45,018 nt of DNA, from positions 1 through 45,018 of the forward strand of contig JAHEIH010000007.1 of assembly GCA_024639455.1 (NCBI GenBank). The letters are read 5' to 3'. Position 1 is the stretch's first letter, and each line of letters opens with the position of its first letter. Both the position numbers and the translations under genes were made by a program. Below are positions 1,852 through 41,094 of this stretch, one piece after another. The notes under the pieces are model-generated. The model was not told the origin of the DNA. It ran no database searches and saw only the letters and a list, made by a program, of their open reading frames with translations. This DNA comes from Cellvibrionales bacterium (GTDB lineage Bacteria; Pseudomonadota; Gammaproteobacteria; Pseudomonadales; JAHEIH01).

Positions 1852-1867
1852 AGCAAATCTTATGCCA
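1852..1867 (-). promoter_or_regulatory. Sigma54 promoter for the SDR/isomerase operon
   Basis: The minus strand reads TGGCATAAGATTTGCT, with GG and GC separated by exactly 10 nt, as in the consensus TGGCAC-N5-TTGCW. Transcription should start near 1841, 47 nt before the GTG at 1794. It is divergent from the promoter at 2076-2091. Confidence 0.85.
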
Positions 1868-1943
1868 AATGGTCGAATGCCCTGTTTGTCTAGGACGTAA
1901 TGGGGAGCTTGTACGATGTGATGGTAGTTTTGTATCTCAATCA

Positions 1944-1966: not shown

Positions 1967-2075
1967 GCCTCGAGCTACACCGCTGTGAAGAACCGTGATG
2001 TTGAGCGCTACAACACGGCGGGATAAGAGCGAGAAACCGAGCAAGTAAAGGGGTTTTTACTGGAATCGCTTTGAA

Positions 2076-2091
2076 TGGCATAGACATTGCT
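2076..2091 (+). promoter_or_regulatory. Sigma54 promoter for the ring-cleavage operon
   Basis: TGGCATAGACATTGCT has GG-N10-GC spacing and a TTGCT -12 box. The predicted start is near 2102, 37 nt before the ATG of the CoA-transferase gene. It probably drives the genes from 2139 to at least 9966. Confidence 0.87.
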
Positions 2092-2138: not shown

Positions 2139-3350
2139 ATGAGCCAATTGCCGTTTCACTCACTGCCACACGTCCCGACCTCTGCGGGTTTAGCGTGCTT
2201 TGATGGCATTCGAGTGATCGATTTGACCACCTCAGTCGCGGGTCCCTACGCCACCATGCTGCTCGGTGATTTCGGTGCCGAAATTATTAAAATTGAGCGT
2301 CCGCACGGGGACGATTCGCGCCATTGGGGGCCTCCATTTCTAGAGGGCGAGGCGCTGTGGTTCCTCGCCATGAACCGCAACAAGAAAAGTGTGGTGATGG
2401 ATATGCGCGACGCCGAGCAGCGAGCTATGTTCGACGCGTTGGTTAAAACCGCCGACGTGGTGGTAACCAATCAGCCACCCGATGTACAAAAGAAATTGCG
2501 CCTCGACTACGATTCGTTATCGGCGCTGCGCGAAGATTTGGTGTTTGTTTCTATAAGCGGTTTCGGGCTAGAGGGTGAGCGCGCCAACCTTACGTGCTAC
2601 GACCTGATTGCTGAAGGGTATTCCGGCATCATGGATATTACCGGTGCGCCCGATAGTCCGCCGCAAAAGGTCGGTGCTCCCGCAGCGGATATGCTGGCGG
2701 GACAAGATGCCGCCATGTCTGCTATGGCGGCATTGTTTGAACGCGCTCGTACCGGCAAGGGTAAAAAGATCGATGTTAGCTTGGTGCAGAGCATGACGCG
2801 TTTCCTCGCCTGTCGCATCTCGCCCTACTTGGGCGCCAACGAAGTGCCCAAGCGCTCAGGTGGTACCGACAGCGTTATCGCTATCTATCAATCGTTTGAA
2901 ACCGCCGACCTGCCTATGACGTTGGGCTTGGGTAACGACGCCATTTGGCAGCGTTTCTGGGCGGCAGTGGGTGATGAGGCTTACGCCGCAAACCCTGATT
3001 TTGCCTCCAATGCGGATCGCCGTATACACCGCGAATCTATCGTGGCGAAGATCCAAGACATGCTGCTGACCAAGCCTCGCGCTGAGTGGTTAGAGATTTT
3101 GGCTGAAGCGCGCGTGCCCGCGGGTCCCATCTATGCAGTAGACGAATTGTGTGCCGACGAGCACCTGCAAGCGCGCGGTATGTTCTACACCCTAGAAGAT
3201 GGCACCGGTCGCAAGGTGCCGCAGATCGGCCTAGGTATTAATTTTGATGATCAGCACGTGATCGCTTCCGCAGCACCGCCGCGCTTGGGCGAACACACCG
3301 AAGAAATATTACAGTCCCTCGCGCAAGGCAAAGACGCGAAGGCCGTTTAA
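2139..3350 (+). CDS. CaiB/BaiF class III CoA-transferase
   Basis: A 403-aa family III CoA-transferase that moves CoA between acids in the cytoplasm. The N-terminal GIRVIDLTTSVAGPYATMLLGDFGAEIIKIE block and the Asp of GAPAADMLAG (about residue 184, matching the catalytic Asp of the family) are visible. Length is normal for a one-domain member. AAGGAG precedes the ATG. It is the first gene of the operon, directly ahead of the BadI-type hydrolase, so it may activate the acid substrate or recycle CoA from a dicarboxylate intermediate. Donor and acceptor cannot be read from the sequence. Confidence 0.9.
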   Translation: MSQLPFHSLPHVPTSAGLACFDGIRVIDLTTSVAGPYATMLLGDFGAEIIKIERPHGDDSRHWGPPFLEGEALWFLAMNRNKKSVVMDMRDAEQRAMFDALVKTADVVVTNQPPDVQKKLRLDYDSLSALREDLVFVSISGFGLEGERANLTCYDLIAEGYSGIMDITGAPDSPPQKVGAPAADMLAGQDAAMSAMAALFERARTGKGKKIDVSLVQSMTRFLACRISPYLGANEVPKRSGGTDSVIAIYQSFETADLPMTLGLGNDAIWQRFWAAVGDEAYAANPDFASNADRRIHRESIVAKIQDMLLTKPRAEWLEILAEARVPAGPIYAVDELCADEHLQARGMFYTLEDGTGRKVPQIGLGINFDDQHVIASAAPPRLGEHTEEILQSLAQGKDAKAV

Positions 3351-3368
3351 ATGTATTAGGAGAACACC

Positions 3369-4160
3369 ATGAGCCACCCCCAGTACAGCACCATCCTGTT
3401 TGAAGAAGATGGCCCGATCGCCAAGATTACCCTGAATCGCCCCAATGACGGCAATATGTTCAACGTCACCATGTGCCACGAGTTGCGCGATTGCATGGAA
3501 GTGATCCGTCGTGAAACCCGTACTCGCGTCGTTGTGATTACCGGTGCTGGCGACAAATTCTTCTGCATCGGTGGTCAAAAAGACGGCATGGAAGATACCC
3601 AGTTGTACGCCGGTGTATTACCTACTCTGGAAATGTACGAAGCTATCGATCGGTTGCAAAAGCCCGTGATCGCAAGTGTCAACGGTTACGCTGTTGGCGG
3701 TGGCAACGTCCTGCAAGTGGTATGTGATCTCACCATTGCCAAAGAGAGCGCGGTATTCCGCCAAGTGGGCCCGATGATGGGTTCATTCGACGCTGGTTAC
3801 GGTACCTGGTATCTGGAAGACTTAGTGGGTAAAAAGCGCGCCAAAGAAATTTGGTACACCAACCAGAAAATCAGCGCCCACGAAGCGAAAGAGATTGGCC
3901 TGATTAACCGCGTTGTCCCAGACGAGGAGTTGCAAGCTAAGACCCGTGAATACGCGCTTGAAGTGGCCGATCGTGGCGCCATGGCCTTGGCCTCGATCAA
4001 AGGTGCGTTCAACGCTCGCCACGGTGGCGTGGGTGGTTTGTCGCGCGTAACCCACGATATTCTGTTGCGCCAGTACCTTGACTCTTCAGAATCGAAAGAA
4101 ATGAGTGCGAGCTTCAAAGAGCGTCGTCAACCAGACCACTCGACATTTGGTAAAAAATAA
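3369..4160 (+). CDS. badI: 2-ketocyclohexanecarboxyl-CoA hydrolase-like ring-opening crotonase (BadI type)
   Basis: A 263-aa crotonase of the MenB/BadI subgroup. The segment GGGNVLQVVCDLTIA (about residues 110-124) matches BadI, whereas MenB has a His after the GGG turn. QVGPMMGSFDAGYGTWYL carries the Ser139/Asp141 pair typical of the subgroup, and KKRAKEIWY and a C-terminal KERRQPD follow. BadI hydrolyses the ring of 2-oxocyclohexanecarboxyl-CoA to pimeloyl-CoA. The neighbours supply the enzymes for the preceding steps, which favours BadI over naphthoate synthase. A good AGGAG site lies ahead of the ATG. The true ring substrate may carry substituents. Confidence 0.82.
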   Translation: MSHPQYSTILFEEDGPIAKITLNRPNDGNMFNVTMCHELRDCMEVIRRETRTRVVVITGAGDKFFCIGGQKDGMEDTQLYAGVLPTLEMYEAIDRLQKPVIASVNGYAVGGGNVLQVVCDLTIAKESAVFRQVGPMMGSFDAGYGTWYLEDLVGKKRAKEIWYTNQKISAHEAKEIGLINRVVPDEELQAKTREYALEVADRGAMALASIKGAFNARHGGVGGLSRVTHDILLRQYLDSSESKEMSASFKERRQPDHSTFGKK

Positions 4161-4175
4161 TAAAGGCGGAAAGCT

Positions 4176-5789
4176 ATGTTGCCCTATCTGAGTCTTCACC
4201 ATCCCAGTCATGCGCGTAAGTTTTACGACGCGGGTCTGTGGCAGTCGGATACCTTTTATTCGCTGCTGGCGGAGCACGCCGCGGCGCGCCCTGATGCGCT
4301 TGCGCTTCGCGATGGCAGTGCCTCGCTGTCGTGGTGTGCGCTTAAAGCGCGCGTTGATGCATTTGCCGATGACCTGCGTGAGAACGGCATTGGGCAGGGC
4401 GACCGCGTATCTATTTGGATGGGCAACCGCGCCGAAGTGATTATTGCGTTTATCGCCTGTACCCATGAGGGCGTGGCGGTGAATCCCTCACTGCATAAAA
4501 GCCACACCTGCGGTGAAATCATCGAGCTGTTAACCGAGCTGCAAGTGCGCGCCTTGTTAACCGAAGATGATTGGGGTGCAGATCGCGCCGCGAAAGACTT
4601 CAAAGGAATGTTGGCGGAACTGCCCTTCTTGAAGAAGGTATACACCCCGCAAAACTTCCCCTCCACCATTACTAGTGTTGGTGCTCAGCCTTGCGATGAC
4701 CCCGACGTAGTGTCTTACTTGGCCTTTACCTCTGGCTCGACGGGGCGTCCCAAGTGTGTGATGCACTCTGCCAATACCTTGCTTGCTAATGGCCGTGATC
4801 TTGTGCGCGATTGGCAACTGACTAACCAGGATGTCATCCTGTCGCTGAGTCCCTTGTCGCACCATATCGCTTGGGTGGCGTTTTCTCAGTGGTTGCTGTG
4901 CGGCGGTACGTTTGTGACCAATGACCTACCCACAGGTATGTCGACCCTCGATTGGTTGTTGGAAACCAACGCGACGTATGTGCTGGGTGTGCCCACCCAC
5001 GCCATGGATATTCTCAGCGAGCAACGCCAACGTGGTCTCGCTACTTTGGGCGCAGTGAAAATTTTCTACATGGCCGGCTCACCGATTCCAGAAGTGGTGG
5101 CCGAAGCCTTCGTTAATCAAGGCATTGCACCGCAAAATGTGTATGGTATGACCGAGTGCTCTTCGCACCAGTACACCCACCCCGATGATAGCATCGATGT
5201 GTGGACTAAGAGTTGTGGTCGTGGTGGCCCGGCTTACGAAGTGAAAATTTGGAACCCCGAATTCCCCGATGAGGAAATGCCGCTGGGTGTGATGGGCGAA
5301 ATTGGTGGTCGCGGCGCTTGTCAAATGCTGGGTTACTTCGGCAACCAAGCCAAAACCGAGGGCACCTTTAACAAGCACGGCTACCTGATGTCGGGGGACT
5401 TAGGCTACTTCGATAGCGAAGGCAACCTGATGATTCGTGGCCGGGCCAAGGACTTAATCATACGCGGTGGGCACAACATCTATCCCTCGCACATCGAGGC
5501 CAATGCGGTGAAACACCCCGCCGTGGAAAAAGCTGCCGCCTTCGGTATGCCGGATGATCGCCTCGGTGAGCGCGTATGCCTGGCGATCATTGGTAATATT
5601 TCGGCCGAGGATATGCTCGATCACTTGGCCAAAGAGGATCTCTCTAAGTACGACATGCCCGAGTGGTTTGTGGTGCTCGACGAAATGCCGCTAACCGCGA
5701 GTGGCAAAATTTTGAAACGCGAATTGGTGGTATGGGCGCAAAACGGCACCATGACCCCCGCCGAAGTTCGCTACAAAGCAAAGGCTTAA
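4176..5789 (+). CDS. aliA: Acyl-CoA ligase, cyclohexanecarboxylate-CoA ligase type (AliA)
   Basis: A 537-aa AMP-forming acyl-CoA synthetase that activates an acid with ATP and CoA. The P-loop FTSGSTGRPK is at about 184-193, followed by YGMTECS, the hinge GRAKDLIIRGGHNIYP and the C-terminal TASGKILKREL with the catalytic Lys near 511. The N-terminus resembles cyclohexanecarboxylate-CoA ligases more than long-chain ligases. It sits between the BadI-type hydrolase and BadK-type hydratase genes, 15 bp after the former. Probable role: entry into the ring pathway. The acid could be cyclohexanecarboxylate, a substituted derivative or a monocyclic terpene acid. Confidence 0.8.
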   Translation: MLPYLSLHHPSHARKFYDAGLWQSDTFYSLLAEHAAARPDALALRDGSASLSWCALKARVDAFADDLRENGIGQGDRVSIWMGNRAEVIIAFIACTHEGVAVNPSLHKSHTCGEIIELLTELQVRALLTEDDWGADRAAKDFKGMLAELPFLKKVYTPQNFPSTITSVGAQPCDDPDVVSYLAFTSGSTGRPKCVMHSANTLLANGRDLVRDWQLTNQDVILSLSPLSHHIAWVAFSQWLLCGGTFVTNDLPTGMSTLDWLLETNATYVLGVPTHAMDILSEQRQRGLATLGAVKIFYMAGSPIPEVVAEAFVNQGIAPQNVYGMTECSSHQYTHPDDSIDVWTKSCGRGGPAYEVKIWNPEFPDEEMPLGVMGEIGGRGACQMLGYFGNQAKTEGTFNKHGYLMSGDLGYFDSEGNLMIRGRAKDLIIRGGHNIYPSHIEANAVKHPAVEKAAAFGMPDDRLGERVCLAIIGNISAEDMLDHLAKEDLSKYDMPEWFVVLDEMPLTASGKILKRELVVWAQNGTMTPAEVRYKAKA

Positions 5790-5791
5790 CT

Positions 5792-6562
5792 ATGCACGTT
5801 GAATTAACCAAGCAGGGCGACATTGCCCTTCTCACCCTCAATCGCCCAGAGGCACTGAACGCACTGTCGTTCGATATTCTGCAACAGATTGGCAGCGCCA
5901 TCGATGAAGTGGCGAGCTACAACGACGTACGCGCGTTGATCATCACCGGTGCGGGCGACAAGGCCTTTTGTGCCGGCGCCGATATAAAAGAGTTGCGCAA
6001 CCGCCGATTGATTGATCAGAAGCGTGGTGCCGAGTTGGGCCAGGCGATGTTTGCTAAACTAGATCGCCTGCCTGTAGCGTCGATTGCATTGGTCAATGGC
6101 TATGCCTTTGGCGGTGGTGCCGAGTTGGCGATGGCCTGTACCTTCCGCCTAGCCTCTAGTCATGCTGTTTTTGGTCTGCCCGAGGTAAAACTGGGTTTGA
6201 TTCCAGGTTACGGCGGTACCCAGCGTTTACCGCGTTTGGTTGGCGAGAGTCGCGCCATGGAAATCATCATGACTGGTCGCAACGTCAAGGCAGATGAAGC
6301 GGAGCGCATTGGTCTGGTTAATCGTGTGGTGGAAGGTGATCTCATGGAAGCCGGCTTAGAATTCGCAGGCAAGTTCACCCGATACAGCCTACCTGTTTTA
6401 GAATTTGCCCGTCGCGCCGTGCAGCGCGCCGGAGACACCAGCCTGCAGGAAGGTCTGCAGGTCGAGGCTGATTTGTCGACCCTGGCTTATCGCTTGAACG
6501 ATGCGGAAGAGGGCATGGCGGCCTTTGAAGAAAAACGTCGCGCGGAGTTCAAAGATGGTTGA
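5792..6562 (+). CDS. badK: Enoyl-CoA hydratase (BadK type)
   Basis: A 256-aa crotonase with both hydratase glutamates: Glu111 in GGGAELAMA and Glu131 in FGLPEVKLGLIPGYGG. AFCAGADI forms part of the oxyanion-hole region. It is expected to hydrate a cyclic enoyl-CoA such as cyclohex-1-ene-carboxyl-CoA. The ATG follows the AliA-type stop codon by 2 nt. The frame extends farther upstream inside aliA without a plausible start. The last 8 nt overlap the next gene, indicating translational coupling. General short-chain enoyl-CoA hydratase activity is an alternative. Confidence 0.8.
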   Translation: MHVELTKQGDIALLTLNRPEALNALSFDILQQIGSAIDEVASYNDVRALIITGAGDKAFCAGADIKELRNRRLIDQKRGAELGQAMFAKLDRLPVASIALVNGYAFGGGAELAMACTFRLASSHAVFGLPEVKLGLIPGYGGTQRLPRLVGESRAMEIIMTGRNVKADEAERIGLVNRVVEGDLMEAGLEFAGKFTRYSLPVLEFARRAVQRAGDTSLQEGLQVEADLSTLAYRLNDAEEGMAAFEEKRRAEFKDG

Positions 6563-7262
6563 TGCACAAATCGTTGTCACCGGTGCCTCTAAAGGTATCG
6601 GTGCAGAAATCGTTACCCTGTTGGCTGCCAAAGGTGAAAACGTGGTGGGTTTATCGCGAACTGGCACCGTGCCTGCGGGTACTGGCTTCGCTTGCGACAT
6701 GACCGACGAGGTGTCGGTGGTGGAGGCGTTCAAGAAAATCGGTGAGCGCGGTCCTATCAAGGCGCTAGTAAATAATGCCGGCGTGCACATCCTGGGTGCT
6801 ATCGAAAGCCTGAGCGTAGCGTCGTTTAACGAAACCTATGCGCTGAACACCACCGCGGTAATGGTGGCGTCGCGAGAAGCCTACCCCCACATGCTGAAGA
6901 ACGGCGGTGGCGTGGTGGTGAACATGGGGTCGTTTTTTGGCAAATTAGGCGTTAAAGATAACCTGGCTTATTGCAGTTCAAAGGCTGCGGTAGCGGCCAT
7001 GACCCGCTGTATGGCTGTGGAGTGGGCGAAGGATGGCATTCGCGCGGTTAACGTGGCGCCAGGCTACATCGAAACCGACTTGAACCGTGACTATTTGCAG
7101 CGCGAAAAGGTCAAGGCTTGGATGGGTTCACGCATCCCCGTGGGTGCCCCCGGGGTGGCAGAAGACGTTGCCAAACTCGTCTCTTGGTTGTGTATCGAAC
7201 AAGTTAATTTCTTAACAGGTGAGACTATCTACATCGATGGTGCTCAGGGAGTAAATCACTAA
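6555..7262 (+). CDS. badH: SDR 3-hydroxyacyl-CoA dehydrogenase (BadH type)
   Basis: A 235-aa classical SDR: TGASKGIG at residues 9-16, NNAG at 73-76, catalytic Ser126, Tyr139 and Lys143 (YCSSK), and a C-terminal GETIYIDGAQG. In the cyclohexanecarboxylate route this step oxidises 2-hydroxycyclohexanecarboxyl-CoA to the 2-oxo compound that BadI cleaves. The ATG overlaps the end of the hydratase gene, with GGAG upstream, and the stop codon overlaps the next ATG (TAATG). Assignment to BadH rests mainly on operon context, because SDR sequences alone do not fix the substrate. Confidence 0.78.
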   Translation: MVDAQIVVTGASKGIGAEIVTLLAAKGENVVGLSRTGTVPAGTGFACDMTDEVSVVEAFKKIGERGPIKALVNNAGVHILGAIESLSVASFNETYALNTTAVMVASREAYPHMLKNGGGVVVNMGSFFGKLGVKDNLAYCSSKAAVAAMTRCMAVEWAKDGIRAVNVAPGYIETDLNRDYLQREKVKAWMGSRIPVGAPGVAEDVAKLVSWLCIEQVNFLTGETIYIDGAQGVNH

Positions 7263-8428
7263 TGCAGTTACTTAATCGCGTCCTAGCCTCTCGTCATTGG
7301 AACGAAGAGGAACGCATGATTCTGGATTCGGTGCAGCGTGTGGTGAATGACATTATCGCCCCCAACGCTGAACACATCGATGCCACTGGCGAGTTCCCTT
7401 GGGACAACGTTAACGCCCTCAACGAATTGGGGTTGAACGCCATTTTTGTTCCTGAAGCATACGGCGGCATGCCTATGTCGTACCGCCTCTATTTGGAAAT
7501 CGTGACCCTGATTTCGGAGGCGTGCGCCTCGACCGGTATCATTTACGCCACCAACTACCACGGCATGAAGCCGCTGATCGAGTTTGGTAACGAAGAGCAG
7601 AAACAGCGCCTGTTGCCTTGTATTGCTGAAGGGGGGCTGGGCGCGCTGGCGATCACCGAACCTACCGCGGGTTCTGACGCCACCGGTATGAAAACCAGTT
7701 TTACCCCCGATGGCGACGAGATTATCATCAAGGGCTCGAAGATCTTCATCAGCAATGGTGACGTGGCCGACCGCTACTTGGTGTTCGGTAAGTGGAGCGA
7801 AATCGATGACAACAAAGGCTCTATCAGTGCGCTGATACTGGAGAAAGGCGCCGAGGGCTTCTCTGTCATTTCTAAAGAAAAGAAAATGGGTCACAACGGT
7901 TCTTCAACCTGTGCTCTCGCGTTTGATGGCGTGCGCGTGCCGCGCGCCAACCTGCTGGGTGAGCCTGGCGACGGTCTGAAAATTCTGTTGGCGTCCCTCA
8001 ACAAGTCGCGCCCTTCGGTAGCGGCTCATGCTCGAGGTATTGCACGTGCAGCGTTCTACGACATGGTGAACTACGCCAACGAGCGCGTGCAGTCAAAGCG
8101 CCCCATCATCGATTTCCAAGGTATCCAGTTCAAGATTGCCGATCTGGCAGGTGAACTGTTGATGCTGGAAAAGTGGATGGACTACGTTGCAGACTTGGTC
8201 GATAGCGGTATTAACGACATGGGTATGGAAGCGTCCGTGGCTAAACAGCGCGGTAGTGACTTGGCCATGAAGATGGCCATCGAGTGCGTGCAGACCCATG
8301 GTGGCTATGGCTACTGTCGTGATTACCGCGCCGAGCGCCTGATGCGCGATGCAAAAATCTGTCAAATTTGGGAAGGCACCAACGAAGTGCACCGCCAGTT
8401 GATTGGTCGTAGCTTTAAAGCGCGTTAA
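7262..8428 (+). CDS. aliB: Acyl-CoA dehydrogenase (AliB type)
   Basis: A 388-aa FAD-dependent acyl-CoA dehydrogenase with the catalytic Glu in IWEGTNEVHRQ (about residue 371), the ITEPTAGSD flavin/substrate segment and HGGYGYCRDYRAERLMRDAK. It passes electrons to ETF, which is encoded downstream at 26229-27907. The start codon overlaps the BadH-type stop by one base. By position it would form the ring double bond of cyclohexanecarboxyl-CoA (AliB step). A role on a side chain or on pimeloyl-CoA cannot be excluded. Confidence 0.8.
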   Translation: MQLLNRVLASRHWNEEERMILDSVQRVVNDIIAPNAEHIDATGEFPWDNVNALNELGLNAIFVPEAYGGMPMSYRLYLEIVTLISEACASTGIIYATNYHGMKPLIEFGNEEQKQRLLPCIAEGGLGALAITEPTAGSDATGMKTSFTPDGDEIIIKGSKIFISNGDVADRYLVFGKWSEIDDNKGSISALILEKGAEGFSVISKEKKMGHNGSSTCALAFDGVRVPRANLLGEPGDGLKILLASLNKSRPSVAAHARGIARAAFYDMVNYANERVQSKRPIIDFQGIQFKIADLAGELLMLEKWMDYVADLVDSGINDMGMEASVAKQRGSDLAMKMAIECVQTHGGYGYCRDYRAERLMRDAKICQIWEGTNEVHRQLIGRSFKAR

Positions 8429-8457
8429 TTCCAAACCAATGCTAGGAGAGTAGGACA

Positions 8458-9966
8458 TTGTCTACTGCAATTAAAAAAGTCGCCGTGTGTGGCGCAGGTG
8501 GTACCATGGGTGCCGGTATCGCTCTAGTGGCCGCGCGGGGCGGTTTTGAGACTGTGTGTTTCGACCTGTCGAGTGAGCGCTTAGAGCAGCAATCCGCCGC
8601 TGCCGCTAAGTTTTTCGACAAGGCCATCGCGCGCGGTAAGATGGATCAGGCACAGCGCGACGCTGCACTGGCTCGCATGAGCAACACCTCGGACCTGAAT
8701 GATCTAGCTGATTGCGATTTAGTGATCGAGGCCATTTTTGAAAACCTAGAGGTGAAACGCGAGCTATTCACCAAGCTGAACGGCATCTGTAAACCTGAGA
8801 CGATTTTTGCGTCCAACACCTCGACGCTGTCGATCACTCAGATCGCCGGTGGTTGTGGACGTGAAGACAAAGTTGTTGGCATGCACTTCTGCTTGCCCGC
8901 ACAGGTGATGAAGCTGATCGAAATGTCGCGCGGTATCAATACCTCGGATGAAACCTTCAATAACGCGTGGGCTTGGACCGAAACGGCAGGTCAAATCCCC
9001 GTAGAAACCCAGGACAAACCAGGCTTCATCCTCAATGCCTTGTTGGTACCCTTCAACAACGACGTGATCCGCGCCATCGAAGCGGGCTTGGCCAGCGCCG
9101 AGGATATCGATATCGCTATCCGTACAGGCTTAGGCTACAAAATGGGTCCCTGCACCCTGTTGGATCTGATCGGTTTGGATACTCAAGTGCTATTGGGTGA
9201 AGCTTTCTACCCCATCACTCTCGACACCCGCGCATCGGTACCGCCGTTACTACGTCGCATGGTGGCAGCCGGTAAACTGGGTAATAAGTCGGGCGAAGGT
9301 TTCCTCACCGCTGAAGTAGCCCCCAAGGCTGAATCTTGTTTGAGTTACGAAGTGATCGGCAAAACTGGTCGCTCCTTCCCTGATGGCGACCACCCGTTGG
9401 CGGCGGGTTCAGTCATCCATGGTGATGTGCGTATTTACACGGGCACGTGCTTTGAAGTTAACGCCGACAAAGCCGCGATTGCGGTGGAGCTGGATACCGA
9501 ATGTCTCGGTGTTTACACCGGCGAATTGGGTGACGAAGCGACCGCTAATGTGGTTGGCTTTGCGCGCTATCGCAACGGTAGTGAAGCACCGTCTAATCTT
9601 ATTGAGTTGGTTTACAAGCCCCACACCAAGCCCGCGGCCATCGCCGCCGCCCGCGCAGTATTTGAAGTAGCCGGCTTTGATGTGGTGCTGTGTAATGATT
9701 TGCCGGGTCGTATTGTCGATCGCCTGGTGCGTCCTAAGTATAACGACGCACTGCGTTTTGTCGACGAAGGCCTGGCATCACCGGCCGACATGGACAAGAC
9801 CTGCTGCATGGGGCTGGGTTATCCCGTTGGTCCTGTGGGGCGCGCCGTGGCGGGTGGCCTTGCGCGTCACTACTGTGTGTCAAAAGCGATCTACGATATG
9901 ACCGGGCAGCCTGGTTATGCGCCCGCCCGTGCCGCCGTTGTCGAACATCAACGCAGTCAAGCCTAA
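8458..9966 (+). CDS. 3-hydroxyacyl-CoA dehydrogenase, two C-terminal domains
   Basis: A 502-aa NAD-dependent 3-hydroxyacyl-CoA dehydrogenase of the long PaaH-like form, with an N-terminal Rossmann domain and two C-terminal helical domains. The dinucleotide loop is GAGGTMGAG, one residue longer than the usual GAGTMGAG. Catalytic His143 and Glu155 are present, but the usual HFFNP reads HFCLP. Asn193 is retained in GFILNALL. The start is TTG with AGGAG upstream. It follows the AliB-type gene by 29 nt and is closed by a strong terminator at 9982-10009. The altered active-site loop may point to a bulky or cyclic substrate. Confidence 0.85.
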   Translation: MSTAIKKVAVCGAGGTMGAGIALVAARGGFETVCFDLSSERLEQQSAAAAKFFDKAIARGKMDQAQRDAALARMSNTSDLNDLADCDLVIEAIFENLEVKRELFTKLNGICKPETIFASNTSTLSITQIAGGCGREDKVVGMHFCLPAQVMKLIEMSRGINTSDETFNNAWAWTETAGQIPVETQDKPGFILNALLVPFNNDVIRAIEAGLASAEDIDIAIRTGLGYKMGPCTLLDLIGLDTQVLLGEAFYPITLDTRASVPPLLRRMVAAGKLGNKSGEGFLTAEVAPKAESCLSYEVIGKTGRSFPDGDHPLAAGSVIHGDVRIYTGTCFEVNADKAAIAVELDTECLGVYTGELGDEATANVVGFARYRNGSEAPSNLIELVYKPHTKPAAIAAARAVFEVAGFDVVLCNDLPGRIVDRLVRPKYNDALRFVDEGLASPADMDKTCCMGLGYPVGPVGRAVAGGLARHYCVSKAIYDMTGQPGYAPARAAVVEHQRSQA

Positions 9967-9981
9967 GCGGCTAGCGCGTTT

Positions 9982-10009
9982 AATAGGCCCTTTCGAGGGC
10001 CTATTTTTT
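9982..10009 (+). terminator. Intrinsic terminator with TTCG tetraloop
   Basis: A perfect 10-bp stem (9982-9991 with 9996-10005) closes on TTCG and runs into a T-tract. It ends the ring-cleavage operon only 17 nt before the next ATG, so the second dehydrogenase needs read-through or an unseen promoter. Confidence 0.9.
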
Positions 10010-10026
10010 ATCGAATTGAAAAGAGA

Positions 10027-11457
10027 ATGAGTATGACAGCATTAGCATCAGACGTTGTGGTTGGGGTGGTTGGCGCCGGCACCATGGGGGCAGGTATTGC
10101 ACAGGTGGCGGCAGCCGCGGGACACCCCGTGGTGTTATTTGACGCCTTCGACGGTGCGGGCGAAGCGGGTAAGCAACGGCTCGCGGCGGGTCTCGACAAG
10201 TTGGTCGCCAAAGGAAAAATGAGCGTCGAGGACTGCCAAGCATTACTCGACCGCATCAGCATCGCCGACAGTATGGCGGCCATGGCGCCAGCCGGATTGG
10301 TCGTTGAAGCGATCTTGGAAGACCTTGACGTGAAGCGACAATTGTTTGCCGAGCTAGAGGCTATTGTCGCGCCTGAGGCTATCTTGAGCTCTAATACCTC
10401 CTCAATCTCAATTACTTCCATTGCGCGGGATCTACAGCGGCCCGAGCGCTTTGTGGGTATGCACTTTTTTAACCCTGCGCCAGTAATGAAGCTGGTTGAA
10501 GTGATCTCGGGGGTAGCGACATCGAGCGAAGTGGCGGCCTGTGTATTTGCCATCGCGTCGACTTGGGGCAAGGTGGCGGTGCATGCTAAATCAACCCCGG
10601 GTTTTATCGTGAACCGCGTGGCGCGCCCCTACTATGCCGAGGCGCTGCGTCTTTTCGAAGAGCAATTGGCCGATCCCGCAACCCTAGACGCGTTATTGAC
10701 CGGTGGGGCTGGCTTCCGTCTCGGCCCCTTCGCATTGATGGATCTGATCGGTCAGGATGTGAATTACGCTGTGAGTGAATCTGTCTTTAACGCGTTCTAT
10801 CAAGAGCCGCGGTTTAGGCCTTCATTGGTGCAGCGCGAGTTGGTCAATGCCGGCTTCCTGGGTCGCAAAAGTGGGCGCGGTTTCTACCGTTACGATGACG
10901 GCGCCGATACGCTAAGCGTGAGTCAGATCGAGGTGCCTGCAGGGACAGCCAGCGCTGAGTTGAATCCGGCTGGTGTCAGCGTAGTCGACGGCGTACAAGT
11001 GCGAATGACCGATGGTCGAACCGCGCAGGCCGTGGCCCGCGCCGAAGGTTTCCCTGTGATCTTGTTTGACCTGTTAACCGAACAGTCGACGCGGGTGGCG
11101 ATCAGTGCTTCGAGCGATGTTTTAGATACCGTGTTACACAGCGTGGTGGCGGGTTTTAACGCCCGCGGCATCGAGGTCACTCATGTGGCGGATTGGCCAG
11201 GATTGGTGGTAATGCGTACGGTGGCCATGTTGGCGAACGAGGCCTTCGAGGCAATGCTGCAAGGCGTGGCCAATGGCGAGGGTATAGACAACGCCATGCT
11301 ATTTGGCGTTAACTATCCCCGCGGCCCCGTGGCTTGGGCACAGCAAATTGGCCTGACGACCATCCTTAAGGTATTGGATGCCATCCATGCGCTGACCGGA
11401 GATCCACGCTACCGCGCGTCGATGAAACTTCGCTTGGAGGCTGAATGCCATTTTTAA
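10027..11457 (+). CDS. 3-hydroxyacyl-CoA dehydrogenase, canonical long form
   Basis: A 476-aa paralogue of the preceding gene with canonical motifs: VVGAGTMGAGIA, SSNTSSISIT, GMHFFNPAPVMKLVEV with His146 and Glu158, and TPGFIVNR. A second, partly duplicated C-terminal domain follows FLGRKSGRGFYRY. It oxidises (S)-3-hydroxyacyl-CoA with NAD. The last 13 nt overlap the start of the CMD-family gene. No sigma54 or clear sigma70 promoter is visible in the short gap after the terminator. Together with its paralogue it suggests separate beta-oxidation rounds for different chain or ring intermediates. Confidence 0.88.
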   Translation: MSMTALASDVVVGVVGAGTMGAGIAQVAAAAGHPVVLFDAFDGAGEAGKQRLAAGLDKLVAKGKMSVEDCQALLDRISIADSMAAMAPAGLVVEAILEDLDVKRQLFAELEAIVAPEAILSSNTSSISITSIARDLQRPERFVGMHFFNPAPVMKLVEVISGVATSSEVAACVFAIASTWGKVAVHAKSTPGFIVNRVARPYYAEALRLFEEQLADPATLDALLTGGAGFRLGPFALMDLIGQDVNYAVSESVFNAFYQEPRFRPSLVQRELVNAGFLGRKSGRGFYRYDDGADTLSVSQIEVPAGTASAELNPAGVSVVDGVQVRMTDGRTAQAVARAEGFPVILFDLLTEQSTRVAISASSDVLDTVLHSVVAGFNARGIEVTHVADWPGLVVMRTVAMLANEAFEAMLQGVANGEGIDNAMLFGVNYPRGPVAWAQQIGLTTILKVLDAIHALTGDPRYRASMKLRLEAECHF

Positions 11458-12002
11458 GTTCGCTGCCCGACAACGCTGGGCCGCCTAATCTGTTCAAGCG
11501 CTACCCCGAGATCTACGAGGCGTGGGCGCACATGAGTCAGGCCATGATGAATGGCCCCTCGCACCTGTCGCGCGGTGAACGCGAGCTGATACTCACCTAC
11601 GCGGCGGGTGTCGCCGGTTGCGAATTTGTCTACACCGCCCATGCTGAGGTCGCCTACCAACTGGGTATCGAGCGCGGTCTGGTTGAGGCGATGTTGACTG
11701 ATTTAGACACCGCGCCGGTGTCGGATAAGCTGCGTCCAATTATGCAATACGTCAGGCAATTAAGCATTGCTCCCGGCGGTGTGACTCAGGCGATGGTAGA
11801 TGCCGTGATGGCTGCGGGGTGGAGTGAGGACGTCTTGCATTCAGCGGCGGTTATCTGTGCGCGTGCTGCATTTATGCAGCGTTTGGTGCAGGGTTTTGGT
11901 TTTGCCACAACCACGCCAGAGGTCATTGAAAAGCACGCTATCAAGCGTGTCGAAAACGGCTACGTCAATTTGTACAGTGTATTCAAAAAAAATCAGCCTT
12001 AA
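11445..12002 (+). CDS. Carboxymuconolactone decarboxylase/AhpD-like protein lacking the CxxC pair
   Basis: A 185-aa all-helical CMD/AhpD-fold protein. The hallmark ExxxxCxxCxxxH is reduced: Cys59 and His66 remain, but the second cysteine is Val62 (GCEFVYTAHA). A peroxidase function of the AhpD type is therefore unlikely, and a decarboxylase, lactone-related or binding role is more probable. It overlaps the upstream dehydrogenase gene, so it is translationally coupled to it. It converges on the acyl-CoA dehydrogenase gene that ends at 12068. The substrate is unknown. Confidence 0.72.
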   Translation: MPFLSSLPDNAGPPNLFKRYPEIYEAWAHMSQAMMNGPSHLSRGERELILTYAAGVAGCEFVYTAHAEVAYQLGIERGLVEAMLTDLDTAPVSDKLRPIMQYVRQLSIAPGGVTQAMVDAVMAAGWSEDVLHSAAVICARAAFMQRLVQGFGFATTTPEVIEKHAIKRVENGYVNLYSVFKKNQP

Positions 12003-12067: not shown

Positions 12068-13267
12068 TTAACCCTTGCGGCCCATCGAGCGCAGGCCGGT
12101 TTTGCCGTGGTGGCGATCGGCCACTTTGTAGCCCAGCGCGTCTTCAGCAATCAATATTTTCTGTACGTTCGCGGTGCCTTCACCGGTAAACATCAAGTCG
12201 GCATACTTTTTATAGCGCGAGATGCGGTACTCGGTTGAAAGACCGTAGCCACCGAAGATCTGTTGCGCGGTATCGGCGCAGAATTTGGCTGTTTTTGAGG
12301 CGTGGAACTTGGCAATAGCGGCTAAACGGTTGGTGGGCAATTCTTCGTCCATCGCTTGTGCCGCTTGGTATACCAGCGCACGGCTCGCTTCAATTTCTAC
12401 CGCCATCTCAGCGATTTGTGCCTGAATCATCTGGTAGTGACCAATAGGTTGTCCTTTGATGATGCGCTCGTTGGCGTATTTCACCGCGTCTTCAAAACAG
12501 CCAATGGCAATGCCCAGAGCCTTAGCGCCGATTACCGCACGGCCGCCTTGTAGAGCACGCATAATGATCTTGAAGCCTTCGCCTTCTTCGCCCAAGCGGT
12601 TCTCCACGGGCACGACGAAGTCATCCAAGAATACCGCACAAGTGCGGAATGACTTAGACAGACCTACGTCGATGGGTTGTGCGCTGTAGCCGGGGTATTT
12701 CTTGGGTTCGACGATGAACGCTGTCACGCCACGTGCGCCAGCCTCGGGGTCAGTTTTGGCGAGCAAGATGCCCACATCGCACTCATCGCCCAAGGTGGCC
12801 CACATTTTTGAACCGTTCAGTTTGTAGACGTCGCCTTCGCGGCGCGCGAAAGTTTTCATTGCGCCTGCAGCATCCGAGCCACCGCCGGCTTCGGTCAATG
12901 CCATCATGCCCACGGTATTACCCGCTAGTAGGTCTGGAACGTACTTTTGAATTTGCTCGTCGGTACCAGCCAAGAAAATACAGGCAGGGCAGTTGCCACC
13001 GTTTTGGTTGAAGCCGCCGTAGCGAACGTCCATACGAGCGATTTCTTCAATGATGATGGCCGCCGCCAAGTAACCCATGTCGCTGCCACCAATCTCTTCT
13101 GGAAAGGTACAACCGTAGAAGCCAGCATCACCCGCTCTTTTGATCAGGTCGCGGGGCAATTCACCGCGTTCTTCATACGCATCCATATTGGGGATGATTT
13201 CTTGTTCCATGAAACGGCGAATGCTGTCGCGGATAGCGCCAATTTCGTCTGGGAGCATTTGATCCAT
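12068..13267 (-). CDS. Acyl-CoA dehydrogenase
   Basis: A 399-aa acyl-CoA dehydrogenase with MALTEAGGGSD, FGGYGLSTEYRISRYKKYADLMF and the catalytic Glu in GEGTANVQ (about residue 363, usually EGTNEIQ). The ATG at 13267 has AGAGGA upstream. A longer in-frame start at 13429 lies upstream of the sigma54 promoter at 13343-13358 and is therefore rejected. It is divergent from the thiolase-like/MaoC operon. It may supply the alpha,beta-desaturation that precedes MaoC hydration and aldolytic cleavage. The substrate is not predictable from the sequence. Confidence 0.88.
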   Translation of the reverse strand: MDQMLPDEIGAIRDSIRRFMEQEIIPNMDAYEERGELPRDLIKRAGDAGFYGCTFPEEIGGSDMGYLAAAIIIEEIARMDVRYGGFNQNGGNCPACIFLAGTDEQIQKYVPDLLAGNTVGMMALTEAGGGSDAAGAMKTFARREGDVYKLNGSKMWATLGDECDVGILLAKTDPEAGARGVTAFIVEPKKYPGYSAQPIDVGLSKSFRTCAVFLDDFVVPVENRLGEEGEGFKIIMRALQGGRAVIGAKALGIAIGCFEDAVKYANERIIKGQPIGHYQMIQAQIAEMAVEIEASRALVYQAAQAMDEELPTNRLAAIAKFHASKTAKFCADTAQQIFGGYGLSTEYRISRYKKYADLMFTGEGTANVQKILIAEDALGYKVADRHHGKTGLRSMGRKG

Positions 13268-13342
13268 TTGTCGAGTCCTCTGCTGGGATGTATTAGTCGT
13301 TCGTCGCTGTGTATTGATATACGACGAGATACTCCGCCTATA

Positions 13343-13358
13343 CGCAAATTTCAGACCA
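13343..13358 (-). promoter_or_regulatory. Sigma54 promoter for the acyl-CoA dehydrogenase gene
   Basis: The minus strand reads TGGTCTGAAATTTGCG, with GG-N10-GC exact. The predicted start is near 13332, 65 nt before the ATG. It is only 44 nt from the divergent promoter at 13402-13417. Confidence 0.75.
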
Positions 13359-13401
13359 GTATTGTGCATTTTGGTTTTTTGCTGAGGATTTTGTTGATGC
13401 G

Positions 13402-13417
13402 TGGCGCAGTTATTGCA
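13402..13417 (+). promoter_or_regulatory. Sigma54 promoter for the thiolase-like/MaoC operon
   Basis: TGGCGCAGTTATTGCA has GG-N10-GC spacing and a TTGCA -12 box. The predicted start is near 13428, about 90 nt before the GTG at 13519. Confidence 0.84.
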
Positions 13418-13518
13418 TCGCAGCAGCATAAAAATGCGTAGTGCACGCGTCGCTTCAGCGATGACGAGCCGCGCTAGGTGTCATGTCACTCTCCATGTGA
13501 CCTTGAGGAGTACAGTTT

Positions 13519-14685
13519 GTGTCTCTAAGAAACAAAGCAGTGATTGTCGGTGTCGGTGAAAGCGACATTGGCAAGCTACCCCACATGAGTGGTTTGGGCT
13601 TGAACGCTCAAGCCGCCAAGCGCGCTATCGACGATGCGGGTTTGAAGCCCAGTCAGATCGATGGCCTGCTAACGGCCTACTCGTTTACTGAGCCCTATTT
13701 TATGTTGGGCTCGGTGCTGGCGGAGTACTTAGGGATACAACCAAAATACTGCAGTTCCATCGTGGTGGGTGGCGCTTCTCCTACTGTGATGCTGCACCAT
13801 GCCGCGCAAGCGGTAGCGAGCGGGGCTGCAAATTACGTACTGGTATGCGCCGGTGAAAATCGCGCCACAGGGATGAGTCGTGACGATGCAGTGTCGGCAC
13901 TGGCGGCGGTGGGCCACCCCTATTTTGAGGCGCCTTACGGTTTGGGAATTCCCTCTCTTTATGCCTTGGTGGCGCAAGCCTATATGAAGAAATACGGTAC
14001 GACGCGTGAGCAAATGGCGGCGGTCGCGGTCAACACGCGCAACCATGCCTTGTTACACCCCAATGCCCATATGAAAAAGCCACTGACGATTGAAGAGGTC
14101 CTCAATTCCAAGCCCATTTCAGCGCCGCTCAATATGTTGGATTGCTGTCTGATATCGGATGCTGGTGGCGCTTTCATTGTTACCCGCCCTGAACTAGCAG
14201 AAGATTTACCCAGCGAAGCGGTTTGGTTGGCGGGCATCGGTGAGGCCCACACCCATGAGCACCTGCTGTCAGCGCCTTCCTTGACGGAATTCGGTGCGTC
14301 CCAGTCGGGTCAGCGGGCCTATGATATGGCGGGGCTCGGTCCCAGTGACATGGATGTGGCCATGCTCTACGACTGCTTCAGTATCGTGCCGATTATTGAA
14401 ATGGAAGAGCTTGGTCTGGCCCCGCGCGGTGAAGGGGGCGCGATGTTCGCGTCGGGTGATGCCGCTGTTGGCGGGCGCCTACCCATTAATACTCATGGCG
14501 GTATGCTGAGTCATGCACACGCTGGTGCTGTGGGTGGCTTGATGGCCTTAATCGAAGCCGTGCGCCAGTTGCGTCACCGCGCCGATAAGCGCCAAGTGGC
14601 CAACGCCGAGACAGCGATCGTGCACGGTGAGGGAGGCATTTTGTCGTCGCACTGTACGGCCGTTCTTACGCGCGAAGCGCGCTAA
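13519..14685 (+). CDS. Thiolase-fold protein without the nucleophilic Cys (Ltp2/SCP-x-like, probable aldolase)
   Basis: A 388-aa thiolase-superfamily protein of the lipid-transfer/SCP-x-like branch. Where SCP-x thiolases carry the nucleophilic Cys (C-S-T-G-S-T), this protein has GGASPT with Gly85. The C-terminal GHPxGATG is HAHAGAVGG, preceded by NTHGG. This is the pattern of non-thiolytic members such as the Ltp2 retro-aldolases, which need a DUF35 partner, and a DUF35 protein is encoded at 17928-18335. GTG start with GAGGAG upstream. First gene of an operon with MaoC, crotonase, dehydrogenase and amidohydrolase. The likely role is C-C cleavage of a beta-hydroxyacyl-CoA. It is not an ordinary beta-ketothiolase. 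Confidence 0.75.
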   Translation: MSLRNKAVIVGVGESDIGKLPHMSGLGLNAQAAKRAIDDAGLKPSQIDGLLTAYSFTEPYFMLGSVLAEYLGIQPKYCSSIVVGGASPTVMLHHAAQAVASGAANYVLVCAGENRATGMSRDDAVSALAAVGHPYFEAPYGLGIPSLYALVAQAYMKKYGTTREQMAAVAVNTRNHALLHPNAHMKKPLTIEEVLNSKPISAPLNMLDCCLISDAGGAFIVTRPELAEDLPSEAVWLAGIGEAHTHEHLLSAPSLTEFGASQSGQRAYDMAGLGPSDMDVAMLYDCFSIVPIIEMEELGLAPRGEGGAMFASGDAAVGGRLPINTHGGMLSHAHAGAVGGLMALIEAVRQLRHRADKRQVANAETAIVHGEGGILSSHCTAVLTREAR

Positions 14686-14716: not shown

Positions 14717-15190
14717 ATGTCTCAACAAGTTCGCGGTCTGTACTTTGATGATTTTACCGTCGGTCAGGTGATCGAGACGCCCCGTCGCACCATTACCAAC
14801 ACCGATATTGTTAATTTCGCCTGCCTGTCTGGCGATTTCAACGGTGTGCACACCGACTGGGAATACTGCAAAACCACCCCTTTCGGTGAGCCAATCGCCC
14901 ACGCGCCGCTAATCTACGCCATTATGGGTGGTTTGACTTACGCGAGCGGTGTTAACGACGGCACCTTGATGGCGGTGATTGGCATCGACGAGTGGCGCAT
15001 GCATTCACCGGTGAAGCACGGCGATACCATTTACATGCGCCAAACGGTCATGGAAACCCGCGCATCATCTAAGCCCGGTCGCGGCATCGTTAAATTTAAG
15101 CGCGAGTTCATGAATCAGCGCGGTGAAGCCTGCCAGAGCATGATCGCTACCTTTATGTACAAGGCACGCCCCGAAGGTGATAAACAATGA
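14717..15190 (+). CDS. MaoC-family enoyl-CoA hydratase
   Basis: A 157-aa single hot-dog-fold MaoC-like protein. The hydratase motif is visible as SGDFNGVHTD followed by PFGEPIAHAPL, giving the expected Asp/Asn/His set. It would hydrate a trans-2-enoyl-CoA to a 3-hydroxyacyl-CoA. AGGA precedes the ATG and the stop overlaps the next ATG (ATGA). Placed between a Cys-less thiolase-like protein and a crotonase, and sharing a regulon with a DUF35 protein, it resembles the hydratase partner of steroid side-chain aldolase systems. Confidence 0.85.
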   Translation: MSQQVRGLYFDDFTVGQVIETPRRTITNTDIVNFACLSGDFNGVHTDWEYCKTTPFGEPIAHAPLIYAIMGGLTYASGVNDGTLMAVIGIDEWRMHSPVKHGDTIYMRQTVMETRASSKPGRGIVKFKREFMNQRGEACQSMIATFMYKARPEGDKQ

Positions 15191-15981
15191 GTGTCGAACA
15201 AGATTTATTGTTTGAGGTGACCGACAGCGTCGCGGTTATTACTCTCAATCGCCCCGATAAACGCAACGCCTTTACCGACGACATGGTGGCGCGCTGGGTT
15301 GATCTGTTGGGTGAATGCGAGCAGCGCGACGATGTGCGCGTGATTGTCATGACCGCGGCGGGCACCAGTTTTTGCTCGGGGGCTGATACCGGCAAAATGG
15401 CAGGTAACAGTGAACAGTCGCCCGTGCAGGCGCGTGATCGTATGACCAATGTGGCACACGCGTTGGTACGCGCGGTGCAGCGCCAGCGCAAGCCGGTCAT
15501 CGCCGCGGTCAATGGTTCTGCCGTTGGCGGGGGTATGGATGTGGCCTTAATGTGCGATATCCGTCTCGCTTCTGATAAGGCGCGCTTTGCTGAAACCTAC
15601 GCCAAAATGGGCTTGTTGCCTGGCGTGGGTGGTGCCTGGTTCCTACCTAAGTTGGTCGGCCAATCAAAGGCTTTCGATATGTTTTGGACCGGTCGTTGGG
15701 TTGAGATTGACGAGGCCAAAGCGCTCGGTATCGTGGACCACGTCTACCCCGATGAAGAATTTCGCGCCTCGGTGATGGATTACGCACGCAGTATTGCCTC
15801 GGCGGCACCGCTGTCGGTGAAAGCCATCAAAGCGTTGATCAAAACCAGTGCTGAGCAGTCGCTCGATACCCATCTAGATGGCTTAGCTGCGCAGTTGGCG
15901 GTGGTTCGCACCAGTGAAGATCACAAAGAGGCATTGGCGGCGTTTAAAGACAAGCGCAAGCCAGACTTCAAAGGTCGCTAG
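15187..15981 (+). CDS. Enoyl-CoA hydratase/isomerase family protein
   Basis: A 264-aa crotonase with SFCSGADTGKM, the GSAVGGGMDVALMCDIRLAS turn and GLLPGVGGAWFLPKLVG. The first hydratase Glu position is Asp in GGGMDVA, while a Glu is kept in RFAETYAKMG, so one of the two catalytic acids is altered and isomerase or other activity is possible. The start overlaps the MaoC stop by 4 nt. The third crotonase of the locus with normal family length. Confidence 0.83.
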   Translation: MSVEQDLLFEVTDSVAVITLNRPDKRNAFTDDMVARWVDLLGECEQRDDVRVIVMTAAGTSFCSGADTGKMAGNSEQSPVQARDRMTNVAHALVRAVQRQRKPVIAAVNGSAVGGGMDVALMCDIRLASDKARFAETYAKMGLLPGVGGAWFLPKLVGQSKAFDMFWTGRWVEIDEAKALGIVDHVYPDEEFRASVMDYARSIASAAPLSVKAIKALIKTSAEQSLDTHLDGLAAQLAVVRTSEDHKEALAAFKDKRKPDFKGR

Positions 15982-16869: not shown

Positions 16870-16892
16870 TCCCCACTATCCAGAGAGTGATC

Positions 16893-20183: not shown

Positions 20184-20200
20184 TCGCTTCCCTGAGCAGT

Positions 20201-20216
20201 TGGTATTGATATTGCT
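20201..20216 (+). promoter_or_regulatory. Sigma54 promoter for the second HIBADH-like gene
   Basis: TGGTATTGATATTGCT has exact GG-N10-GC spacing. The predicted start is near 20227, 43 nt before the ATG at 20270. It lies 17 nt after the activator gene. Confidence 0.8.
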
Positions 20217-20269
20217 AACTGTTCAGCACAATTAATAATGACAACGATATTCAGTCTTTGGAGCGTGCA

Positions 20270-21532: not shown

Positions 21533-21556
21533 CGGTTTGGGCATACGACCTTATTC

Positions 21557-21572
21557 TGGCATTGCGTTTGCT
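21557..21572 (+). promoter_or_regulatory. Sigma54 promoter for the aldehyde dehydrogenase/thiolase operon
   Basis: TGGCATTGCGTTTGCT has exact GG-N10-GC spacing and a near-consensus -24 box. The predicted start is near 21583, about 105 nt before the ATG at 21688. Confidence 0.85.
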
Positions 21573-25498: not shown

Positions 25499-25520
25499 CT
25501 CCCATTTGGATGATTTAAAC

Positions 25521-41090: not shown

Positions 41091-41094
41091 AGTA

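Follow-up and report, generated by a model that had tools for sequence, protein, structure and literature searches.

The gene run considered here occupies positions 2139-12002 of contig JAHEIH010000007.1 (C25) of a Cellvibrionales bacterium whose genome of 2.88 Mb is estimated to be 99.5% complete; the window is the whole stretch that was analysed, bases 1-45018 of this contig. According to open reading frames (ORFs) and family scans, the plus strand carries a CaiB/BaiF (class III) CoA-transferase (2139-3350; best family NF052585, 294 of 750 bits), a crotonase that is the proposed ring-opening hydrolase (3369-4160), an AMP-forming acyl-CoA ligase (4176-5789), an enoyl-CoA hydratase with both catalytic glutamates (5792-6562; start taken as ATG 5792, scanned from 5786), a short-chain dehydrogenase/reductase (SDR) that is the proposed ring-alcohol dehydrogenase (6555-7262; start taken as ATG 6555, scanned from 6558) and an acyl-CoA dehydrogenase (7262-8428; NF043006, 281.9 of 650 bits). 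Neighbouring genes of this core (2139-8428) overlap or are separated by at most 29 bases. The run continues with a 3-hydroxyacyl-CoA dehydrogenase of the long form (8458-9966), a second, PaaH-like 3-hydroxyacyl-CoA dehydrogenase (10027-11457; TIGR02279, 587.6 of 669.4 bits; PRK08268, 606.3 bits, above the cut-off of 508) and, as its last member, a CMD/peroxidase-related protein (11445-12002; PF02627). A sequence-only reading of this DNA had described the clustering of ligase, acyl-CoA dehydrogenase, hydratase, SDR and crotonase together with a CoA-transferase and two long 3-hydroxyacyl-CoA dehydrogenases, and all of these genes are indeed present, the two last-named dehydrogenases falling outside the limit of 8428 that it had drawn.

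Relatives of the crotonase were collected by a scan of named genomes, in which 114 pattern matches led to 88 relatives and to 80 loci that were kept. The crotonases of these loci are 70-85% identical to the window protein and those of actinomycete plasmid relatives 53%; the BadI and MenB proteins encountered are at most 47% identical to it. The nearest solved sequences are those of MenB (2iex), and database records label proteins of this kind 'enoyl-CoA hydratase-related'. In a maximum-likelihood tree of 82 rows, which took in 30 of the 80 loci and eight plasmid loci, the window crotonase and 38 others, two of them actinomycete, form one clade with a support of 100/100. The BadI side forms another clade (97/95), consisting of eight proteins above the badI cut-off, three from ali-bad operons and 12 further rows, and the MenB side joins the window clade at 87/85 only. 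Rows of all three kinds share the side opposite the outgroup crotonases, on a branch of 100/98 that includes three long-branched rows. Because the program warned of long branches, the sister relation to MenB is unsure, whereas the separateness of the window clade from BadI and MenB is well supported. The sequence-only reading had called the protein BadI-type and had named MenB or an unrelated crotonase clade as the other outcomes; the placement lies in between, as a third clade within the MenB/BadI group whose link to MenB is weak.

In a sample of the family of Roseovarius, a clade protein occurs in 2 of 248 genomes, one of which is the sample's own centre. A sample of the phylum (398 genomes) contains nine other proteins of less than 255 bits on the badI model; six of these were included in the tree, all of them outside the clade, and the proteins of G377, G409 and G338 were left unplaced.

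The residues of the active site point to a common chemistry within the group. In an alignment of 81 rows, with the sides as placed by the tree and locus L066 left out of the count for its length, S139 and D141 are invariant in the 38 clade rows, in all 23 rows of the BadI side and in all 13 of the MenB side, one of which comes from a men operon; three outgroup crotonases have L, L and V in the first of these columns and P in the second. The window crotonase lacks both glutamates of hydratases, having V114 and G134 in the columns that we take to correspond to Glu144 and Glu164 of rat crotonase, whereas the neighbouring hydratase retains both. Because the Ser-x-Asp motif is kept and both glutamates are gone, retro-Claisen ring opening appears to be the best mechanism for this enzyme. 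Eight further residues (F64, Y90, V109, R131, M136, W147, E150 and D151) do not vary among the 38 clade rows, and at none of these positions is the residue the one most frequent on the BadI or the MenB side. Taken at the level of sequence, these residues speak for a shared type of chemistry that acts on a different substrate.

The sequence-only reading had identified the genes with the aliA-aliB-badK-badH-badI route for cyclohexanecarboxylate (hereafter bad-ali), and this identification did not hold. The crotonase reaches 245.7 of 380 bits on a menB model, 219.5 of 467.6 bits on the badI model (TIGR03210) and 218.3 of 342.7 bits on another menB model; the ligase reaches 229.6 bits on the AliA model (TIGR03208), where the cut-off is 792.3, and the acyl-CoA dehydrogenase at 7262-8428 reaches 127.8 bits on the AliB model (TIGR03207), where it is 575.35. 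For the SDR, BadH (TIGR03206, cut-off 431.2) is not among the best 25 of 222 families, the lowest of which scored 108.8 bits. As a control, the ali-bad operon on plasmid pPABY2 of Salipiger abyssi, the badI of which is named in the database record, gave 818.5 bits for AliA and 583.2 bits for AliB, both above the cut-offs; Salipiger BadH itself falls short of the BadH model (382.3 of 431.2 bits). The window proteins are 43% (crotonase to BadI), 27.7% (ligase to AliA) and 28.4% (acyl-CoA dehydrogenase to AliB) identical to those of Salipiger. The window hydratase is 43% identical to the hydratase near Salipiger badI, a likeness that at this level is not specific for BadK.

Both kinds of operon can reside in one organism. 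Salipiger abyssi carries an operon of the window type on pPABY4, with a crotonase 81% identical to that of the window, and the badI-aliB-aliA operon on pPABY2. Among 50 clade-bearing genomes, 10 also hold a protein that scores 428-529 bits with the badI model, which in 6 is above the cut-off; the remaining matches of under 255 bits span 194-254 bits and may not all belong to the clade, and a match of 307 bits (G476) and one of 254 bits (G484) are probably outside it. Because the AliA, AliB and BadI scores are far too low, the crotonase has its own clade, both operons are present in Salipiger and control appears to be of the sigma-54 type, membership in the bad-ali cluster was rejected. The genes probably belong to a separate pathway and not to the known cyclohexanecarboxylate route, so that the earlier interpretation was right about the kind of pathway and wrong about its membership.

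The gene set is conserved well beyond this genome. Counts were made on the 67 loci in which the sequence extends at least 2.5 kb upstream and 9 kb downstream of the crotonase (identity limits of 42-50% according to the gene, coverage 40%), although these loci are partly non-independent, several coming from one assembly or species. The 3-hydroxyacyl-CoA dehydrogenase was found in 61 loci, the ligase in 60, the hydratase and the acyl-CoA dehydrogenase in 59 each, the SDR in 55 and the first CaiB protein in 43, and all six occur together in 37 of the 67. The gene set is not a chance assembly. A second CaiB protein (44/67) and an enzyme of the quinone-oxidoreductase type (43/67) accompany it frequently and were not found in the window gene run at 2139-12002; the second 3-hydroxyacyl-CoA dehydrogenase (10027) recurs in 22 loci and the CMD protein (11445) in 6. 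The operon is also present on annotated plasmids of Salipiger, Burkholderia, Aminobacter, Celeribacter and Achromobacter.

The operon is conserved in Alpha-, Beta- and Gammaproteobacteria, with a looser form in actinomycetes. A Streptomyces plasmid cluster includes Etf genes and a transporter of the major facilitator superfamily (MFS), and its crotonase (53%), transferases (41% and 52%) and hydroxyacyl-CoA dehydrogenases (43-44%) resemble those of the window; this version is regarded as looser because the ligase shows only 30% identity and the SDR has a different SDR of the window as its nearest counterpart. Three loci from alphaproteobacterial metagenome-assembled genomes (L088, L092 and L100, the first two from one assembly) have the clade crotonase with only a small part of the core: all have the ligase, and L088 and L092 the hydratase, beside other conserved genes; this arrangement is either a minimal version or another pathway. 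Uptake systems near the relatives are of the MFS, TRAP, TTT and ABC types, which suits a small acid. Three MFS neighbours match best a metabolite/H+ symporter model, all under its cut-off, and the Streptomyces protein has the shikimate transporter as its next-best match (363.5 of 538 bits, under the cut-off), so that the type of transporter gives only a hint of the substrate.

A promoter-like site ahead of the operon and the gene of an activator in its vicinity suggest that expression depends on sigma-54. Sites of the -24/-12 type were scored by a script (maximum 16.5) with a consensus of the GG-N10-GC type. The site ATGGCATAGACATTGCT (2075-2091, plus strand; score 14) lies 64 bases before the operon, and TTGGCATAAGATTTGCT (1852-1868, minus strand; score 15) lies 74 bases before GTG 1794 of a divergent SDR gene, or 86 bases from 1782. 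Further plus-strand sites are found at 13401-13417, 118 bases before a thiolase-like gene (13519), at 20200-20216, before a gene for an NAD-binding_2 oxidoreductase (20258-21532, plus strand), and at 21556-21572, before genes for an aldehyde dehydrogenase (21649) and a thiolase (23135). Weaker candidates with a score of 13.5 are a doubtful site at 25520-25536 (plus strand), which is only 20 bases ahead of the start codon of a cupin gene, and one at 35925-35941 (minus strand), before an AroE-like gene (35052-35858). The gene of a sigma-54-dependent activator, with PF00158 and HTH_8 domains, is located at 18531-20183 on the plus strand.

Of 21 transcription units in the window, seven are preceded by a site at a distance of 20-130 bases (expected 0.67), and five by one scoring at least 14 (expected 0.39); neither number was reached in any of 5000 randomisations. 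A rescan of the 26 best places in which GG and GC were not demanded gave 6, against a mean of 0.54 and a maximum of 4 for 300 scrambled motifs. In the relatives, a site scoring at least 14 precedes the first CaiB gene in 33 of 52 loci; among random stretches 41 of 1040 contain such a site, and among stretches before the ligase 7 of 76. A homologue of the activator is encoded in 30 of the 67 loci, and its gene is divergent from the first gene on Burkholderia multivorans, Aminobacter and Achromobacter plasmids; the site before the first CaiB gene is present in 25 of 30 loci with the activator gene and in 8 of 22 without it.

A second group of genes for acyl-CoA metabolism flanks the operon. Upstream, on the minus strand, are an enoyl-CoA hydratase/isomerase-type crotonase (139-975; best NCBIfam score 182 bits, under the cut-offs of the best 25 families), the orthologues of which adjoin the ring-opening gene in L068, L096 and L111, and an SDR of the 2,4-dienoyl-CoA reductase type (991-1794; PRK07576, 280 of 321 bits; PRK07677, 260 of 318 bits), which is 71-73% identical to its counterparts in L068 and L096; the ORF of the latter was listed to 1944, the start was taken as GTG 1794 and the scans covered 991-1782. 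Downstream, the plus strand encodes an SCPx-type thiolase-like protein (13519-14685; PF22691; PRK06158, 388 of 421 bits) with orthologues of 70-82% in 7 loci, a MaoC-type hydratase (14717-15190; PF01575), also with orthologues in 7 loci, an enoyl-CoA hydratase-type crotonase assigned by family scan (15187-15981; 55-59% in L044, L056 and L068), a 3-hydroxyisobutyrate-dehydrogenase-like oxidoreductase likewise assigned (15988-16869; 61-64% in L057 and L068), an aldehyde dehydrogenase (21649-23112; family scan; 67-69% in L044, L056 and L068) and an acetyl-CoA C-acyltransferase, or thiolase (23135-24346; PRK06205, 637 bits, above the cut-off of 551). A second acyl-CoA dehydrogenase (12068-13429, minus strand; 189.1 bits on the AliB model) has orthologues before the operon, which are 81-85% identical in L044, L056 and L068 and 66% in L124. 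In L044, L056 and L068 the orthologues of 13519, 14717, 15187, 12068 and 21649 adjoin the core, in L068 additionally those of 991 and 139, and some orthologues of this second module occur in L072, L078, L085, L096 and L111 as well.

From these observations, we consider, with a probability of roughly 0.6, that the operon forms the central part of a catabolic pathway under sigma-54 control, the substrate of which is an alicyclic carboxylic acid other than cyclohexanecarboxylate. Gene content, conservation, clade, residues and promoter-like sites are what was observed, and from them we infer the reactions, their order and the substrate. Maturation of the substrate to its CoA ester would be carried out by the ligase or a CaiB-type transferase; the acyl-CoA dehydrogenase would then introduce a double bond adjoining the carboxyl group, the hydratase would add water, and the SDR would oxidise the ring alcohol to a 2-oxo-acyl-CoA. 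EtfBA would receive the electrons of the acyl-CoA dehydrogenases. Finally, the third-clade crotonase would open the ring hydrolytically, in a retro-Claisen reaction, to give the mono-CoA ester of a dicarboxylic acid. CaiB proteins may move CoA after the opening, and the chain would probably be shortened by the 3-hydroxyacyl-CoA dehydrogenases and the second module (the dienoyl-CoA reductase-type SDR, the crotonases, the MaoC protein, the SCPx-type protein and the thiolase). Oxygen would be needed at no core step. The sequence of activation, dehydrogenation, hydration, oxidation and hydrolytic opening had been put forward in the sequence-only reading, and gene content and active-site residues agree with it. 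In this host, the second module includes SCPx-type and 3-hydroxyisobutyrate-dehydrogenase-like enzymes, which would fit a ring with a branch, and the substrate may be a terpene-type or substituted alicyclic acid.

Several observations weigh against this interpretation. A good site before the CaiB gene is missing from 19 of 52 loci, and loci in which the crotonase comes first have a site in 14 of 32 only; the site counts depend on the consensus adopted, on random positions that include coding DNA and on 21 transcription units picked by hand. The crotonase is present without most of the core in L096, L111, L088 and L100, and therefore it may serve more than one pathway. The Ser-x-Asp motif is found also in MenB, a ring-closing enzyme, linkage of the second module to the core is seen in few loci only, and the open-access literature searched yielded no assay of an enzyme from this clade.

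Other explanations of the same genes must be weighed against the pathway proposed here. A diverged bad-ali pathway acting on cyclohexanecarboxylate itself would comprise the same five activities, and its BadI could have been replaced in the 40 of 50 genomes that have no protein of at least 428 bits on the badI model, by a crotonase that is 43% identical to Salipiger BadI and has the Ser-x-Asp motif in common with it. However, this explanation is unlikely, given that the ligase and the dehydrogenase are only about 28% identical to AliA and AliB and far under the cut-offs of the models, that the crotonase has a clade of its own, and that the two operons coexist in Salipiger and the two proteins in 10 of 50 genomes. 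Moreover, no MarR gene was found among the window proteins scanned, which represent part of the ORFs, and the BadR operator CAAN4TTG is absent from 1783-2138. In the window as a whole this motif occurs 30 times, as compared with a mean of 18.07 in shuffled sequences, none of 100 shuffles reaching 30. General beta-oxidation of a linear, perhaps branched, acid, with the crotonase as a plain hydratase or isomerase, is unlikely: the remaining enzymes are of ordinary beta-oxidation types and SCPx-type and 3-hydroxyisobutyrate-dehydrogenase-like genes are nearby, but the crotonase lacks both hydratase glutamates and has an invariant Ser-x-Asp, and a hydratase that retains the two glutamates is already present in the operon.

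Degradation of the last steroid rings, with the crotonase as a ring hydrolase of the EchA20 type, is suggested by the description of EchA20 as clustering with MenB and opening a ring (PMC5380842) and by steroid-type genes on another contig of this genome, C20. It is precisely because these genes sit elsewhere in the genome that a steroid role is judged very unlikely for the window operon: the C20 set has its own FadD3-type ligase and its own crotonase, the latter 29% identical to that of the window, and orthologues of the window operon are scattered among genera that include Afipia, Bradyrhizobium and Aminobacter. No ipdAB, fadD3 or other HIP (hexahydroindanedione propionate) genes were recognised among the window proteins scanned. 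The C20 region (28000-47999; locus L119 of genome G000) encodes HsaA-like (309 of 450 bits) and HsaD-like (169 of 400 bits) proteins, the FadD3-type ligase (648.9 of 657 bits), a 2-oxopent-4-enoate hydratase-like protein, a 4-hydroxy-2-oxovalerate aldolase above the cut-off and a CoA_trans protein near the crotonase, and the host may degrade steroids. Action of the window crotonase in the direction of ring closure, as in MenB or a Dieckmann condensation, would make the operon biosynthetic. Its top family score is that of a menB model (245.7 of 380 bits) and it groups weakly with MenB (87/85), but this direction is highly improbable: the neighbours of its relatives are sigma-54 activators and uptake systems, as in catabolic operons, and MenD, the only men gene searched in the genome, reaches at best 61.5 of 244.2 bits, therefore hardly allowing menaquinone synthesis.

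EtfB and EtfA (26229-27907, plus strand; family scan) are 61-63% identical to the Etf proteins encoded near both Salipiger clusters, and a Rieske oxygenase is encoded at 28695-29723 on the minus strand. The sequence-only reading had set EtfBA and an oxygenase beside the core; the genes exist, but they are 18-20 kb away and do not adjoin it, and the Rieske protein and the Etf genes may or may not be functionally linked with the core. A domain scan revealed an amidohydrolase (Amidohydro_2; 16887-17912, plus strand). The small cupin at 25540-25998 scores 168.3 bits with the (R)-mandelonitrile lyase model, above its cut-off of 140, and has relatives of 60-63% near the operon in L041, L057, L121 and L124. 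On the minus strand, the AroE-like dehydrogenase (35052-35858), which is under the listed cut-offs for shikimate dehydrogenases, stands beside a flavin-reductase-like protein (34349-35017), with the possible sigma-54 site at 35941 ahead of them, and a sugar locus (39771-43519) comprises a xylose isomerase above the cut-off, a xylulokinase-like protein and a transporter of the carboxylate/amino acid/amine type. An MFS carrier of the aromatic acid/H+ symport type (43681-45018; 340.7 of 418.55 bits) possibly takes up a ring acid.

To our knowledge, few hydrolytic routes for the opening of saturated rings are known. It is about an even chance that the MenB/BadI group has in this clade a third functional class, which would supply the ring-opening hydrolase of an undescribed, horizontally spread, sigma-54-controlled and oxygen-independent pathway for a natural alicyclic acid in Alpha-, Beta- and Gammaproteobacteria and, more loosely, in actinomycetes; the substrate might be a ring acid with a hydroxyl group or a branch, for example, or a fraction of the carboxyl-rich alicyclic matter in seawater. 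If this is true, an operon conserved in soil and marine bacteria would offer a testable entry to the turnover of alicyclic acids, and 'cyclohexanecarboxylate degradation' would be a misleading name for such operons. The sigma-54 signature provides a practical handle, because a compound that induces through the activator should point to the substrate, and Salipiger abyssi (L121 and L128), with two ring-opening operons and EtfBA genes near each, is convenient for separating the substrates. No paper was recognised as describing the clade or the operon in the open-access literature, to which the search was confined (subscription papers and preprints lay outside it).

Comparison with known systems places the proposed pathway among several ring-opening routes. 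The bad-ali cluster, as described for Rhodopseudomonas palustris and Aromatoleum sp. CIB (PMC9795900), resembles the window operon in its clustered ligase, acyl-CoA dehydrogenase, hydratase, SDR and MenB/BadI-group crotonase and in requiring no oxygen while occurring also in aerobes. It differs in that the window operon contains a CaiB transferase and hydroxyacyl-CoA dehydrogenases and has a crotonase of another clade, and in that the Gram-negative cluster is described as controlled by the MarR-type BadR with the operator CAAN4TTG, in contrast to the sigma-54-type control suggested for the window. According to the same source, badK is often absent from bad-ali clusters, the cluster is widespread, and aerobic use of cyclohexanecarboxylate through its genes has been shown in Aromatoleum sp. 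CIB; aerobic operation, being already published, is therefore not a new part of the present finding. Genes of Cupriavidus gilardii have been placed in such a route by prediction (PMC4547698).

MenB shares the subgroup and the Ser-x-Asp motif with the window crotonase, which differs in forming its own clade and in belonging to a genome with no MenD above the cut-off. EchA20, which in the account of steroid rings C and D together with IpdAB (PMC5380842) clusters with MenB and opens a ring hydrolytically, was set apart from the window crotonase by description, not by sequence, the steroid-type genes of this genome being on C20 with a crotonase only 29% identical to that of the window; an estrogen cluster is reported to contain a 'BadI-like' gene as well (PMC7793797). 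The mrc genes of Castellaniella defragrans are close in the proposed chemistry, in which a substituted ring acyl-CoA would be hydrated, oxidised and opened by hydrolysis (PMC4109377). MrcE, reported there to be 88% identical to an Azoarcus BadI, presumably belongs to the BadI side, a placement drawn from this figure for a protein outside our tree, whereas the window protein does not. The thn operon of anaerobic naphthalene degraders, where a ring dicarboxylic acid is processed by a CoA-transferase together with acyl-CoA dehydrogenases and crotonases (PMC11659651; PMC12016498), resembles the window operon in these components and differs in its hosts, which are described as sulfate-reducing anaerobes. 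Because ThnP moves CoA within a ring dicarboxylic acid (PMC11659651), it offers a precedent for the role that a CoA-transferase may play after ring opening in the window pathway, although ThnP is a family I transferase and not of the CaiB type.

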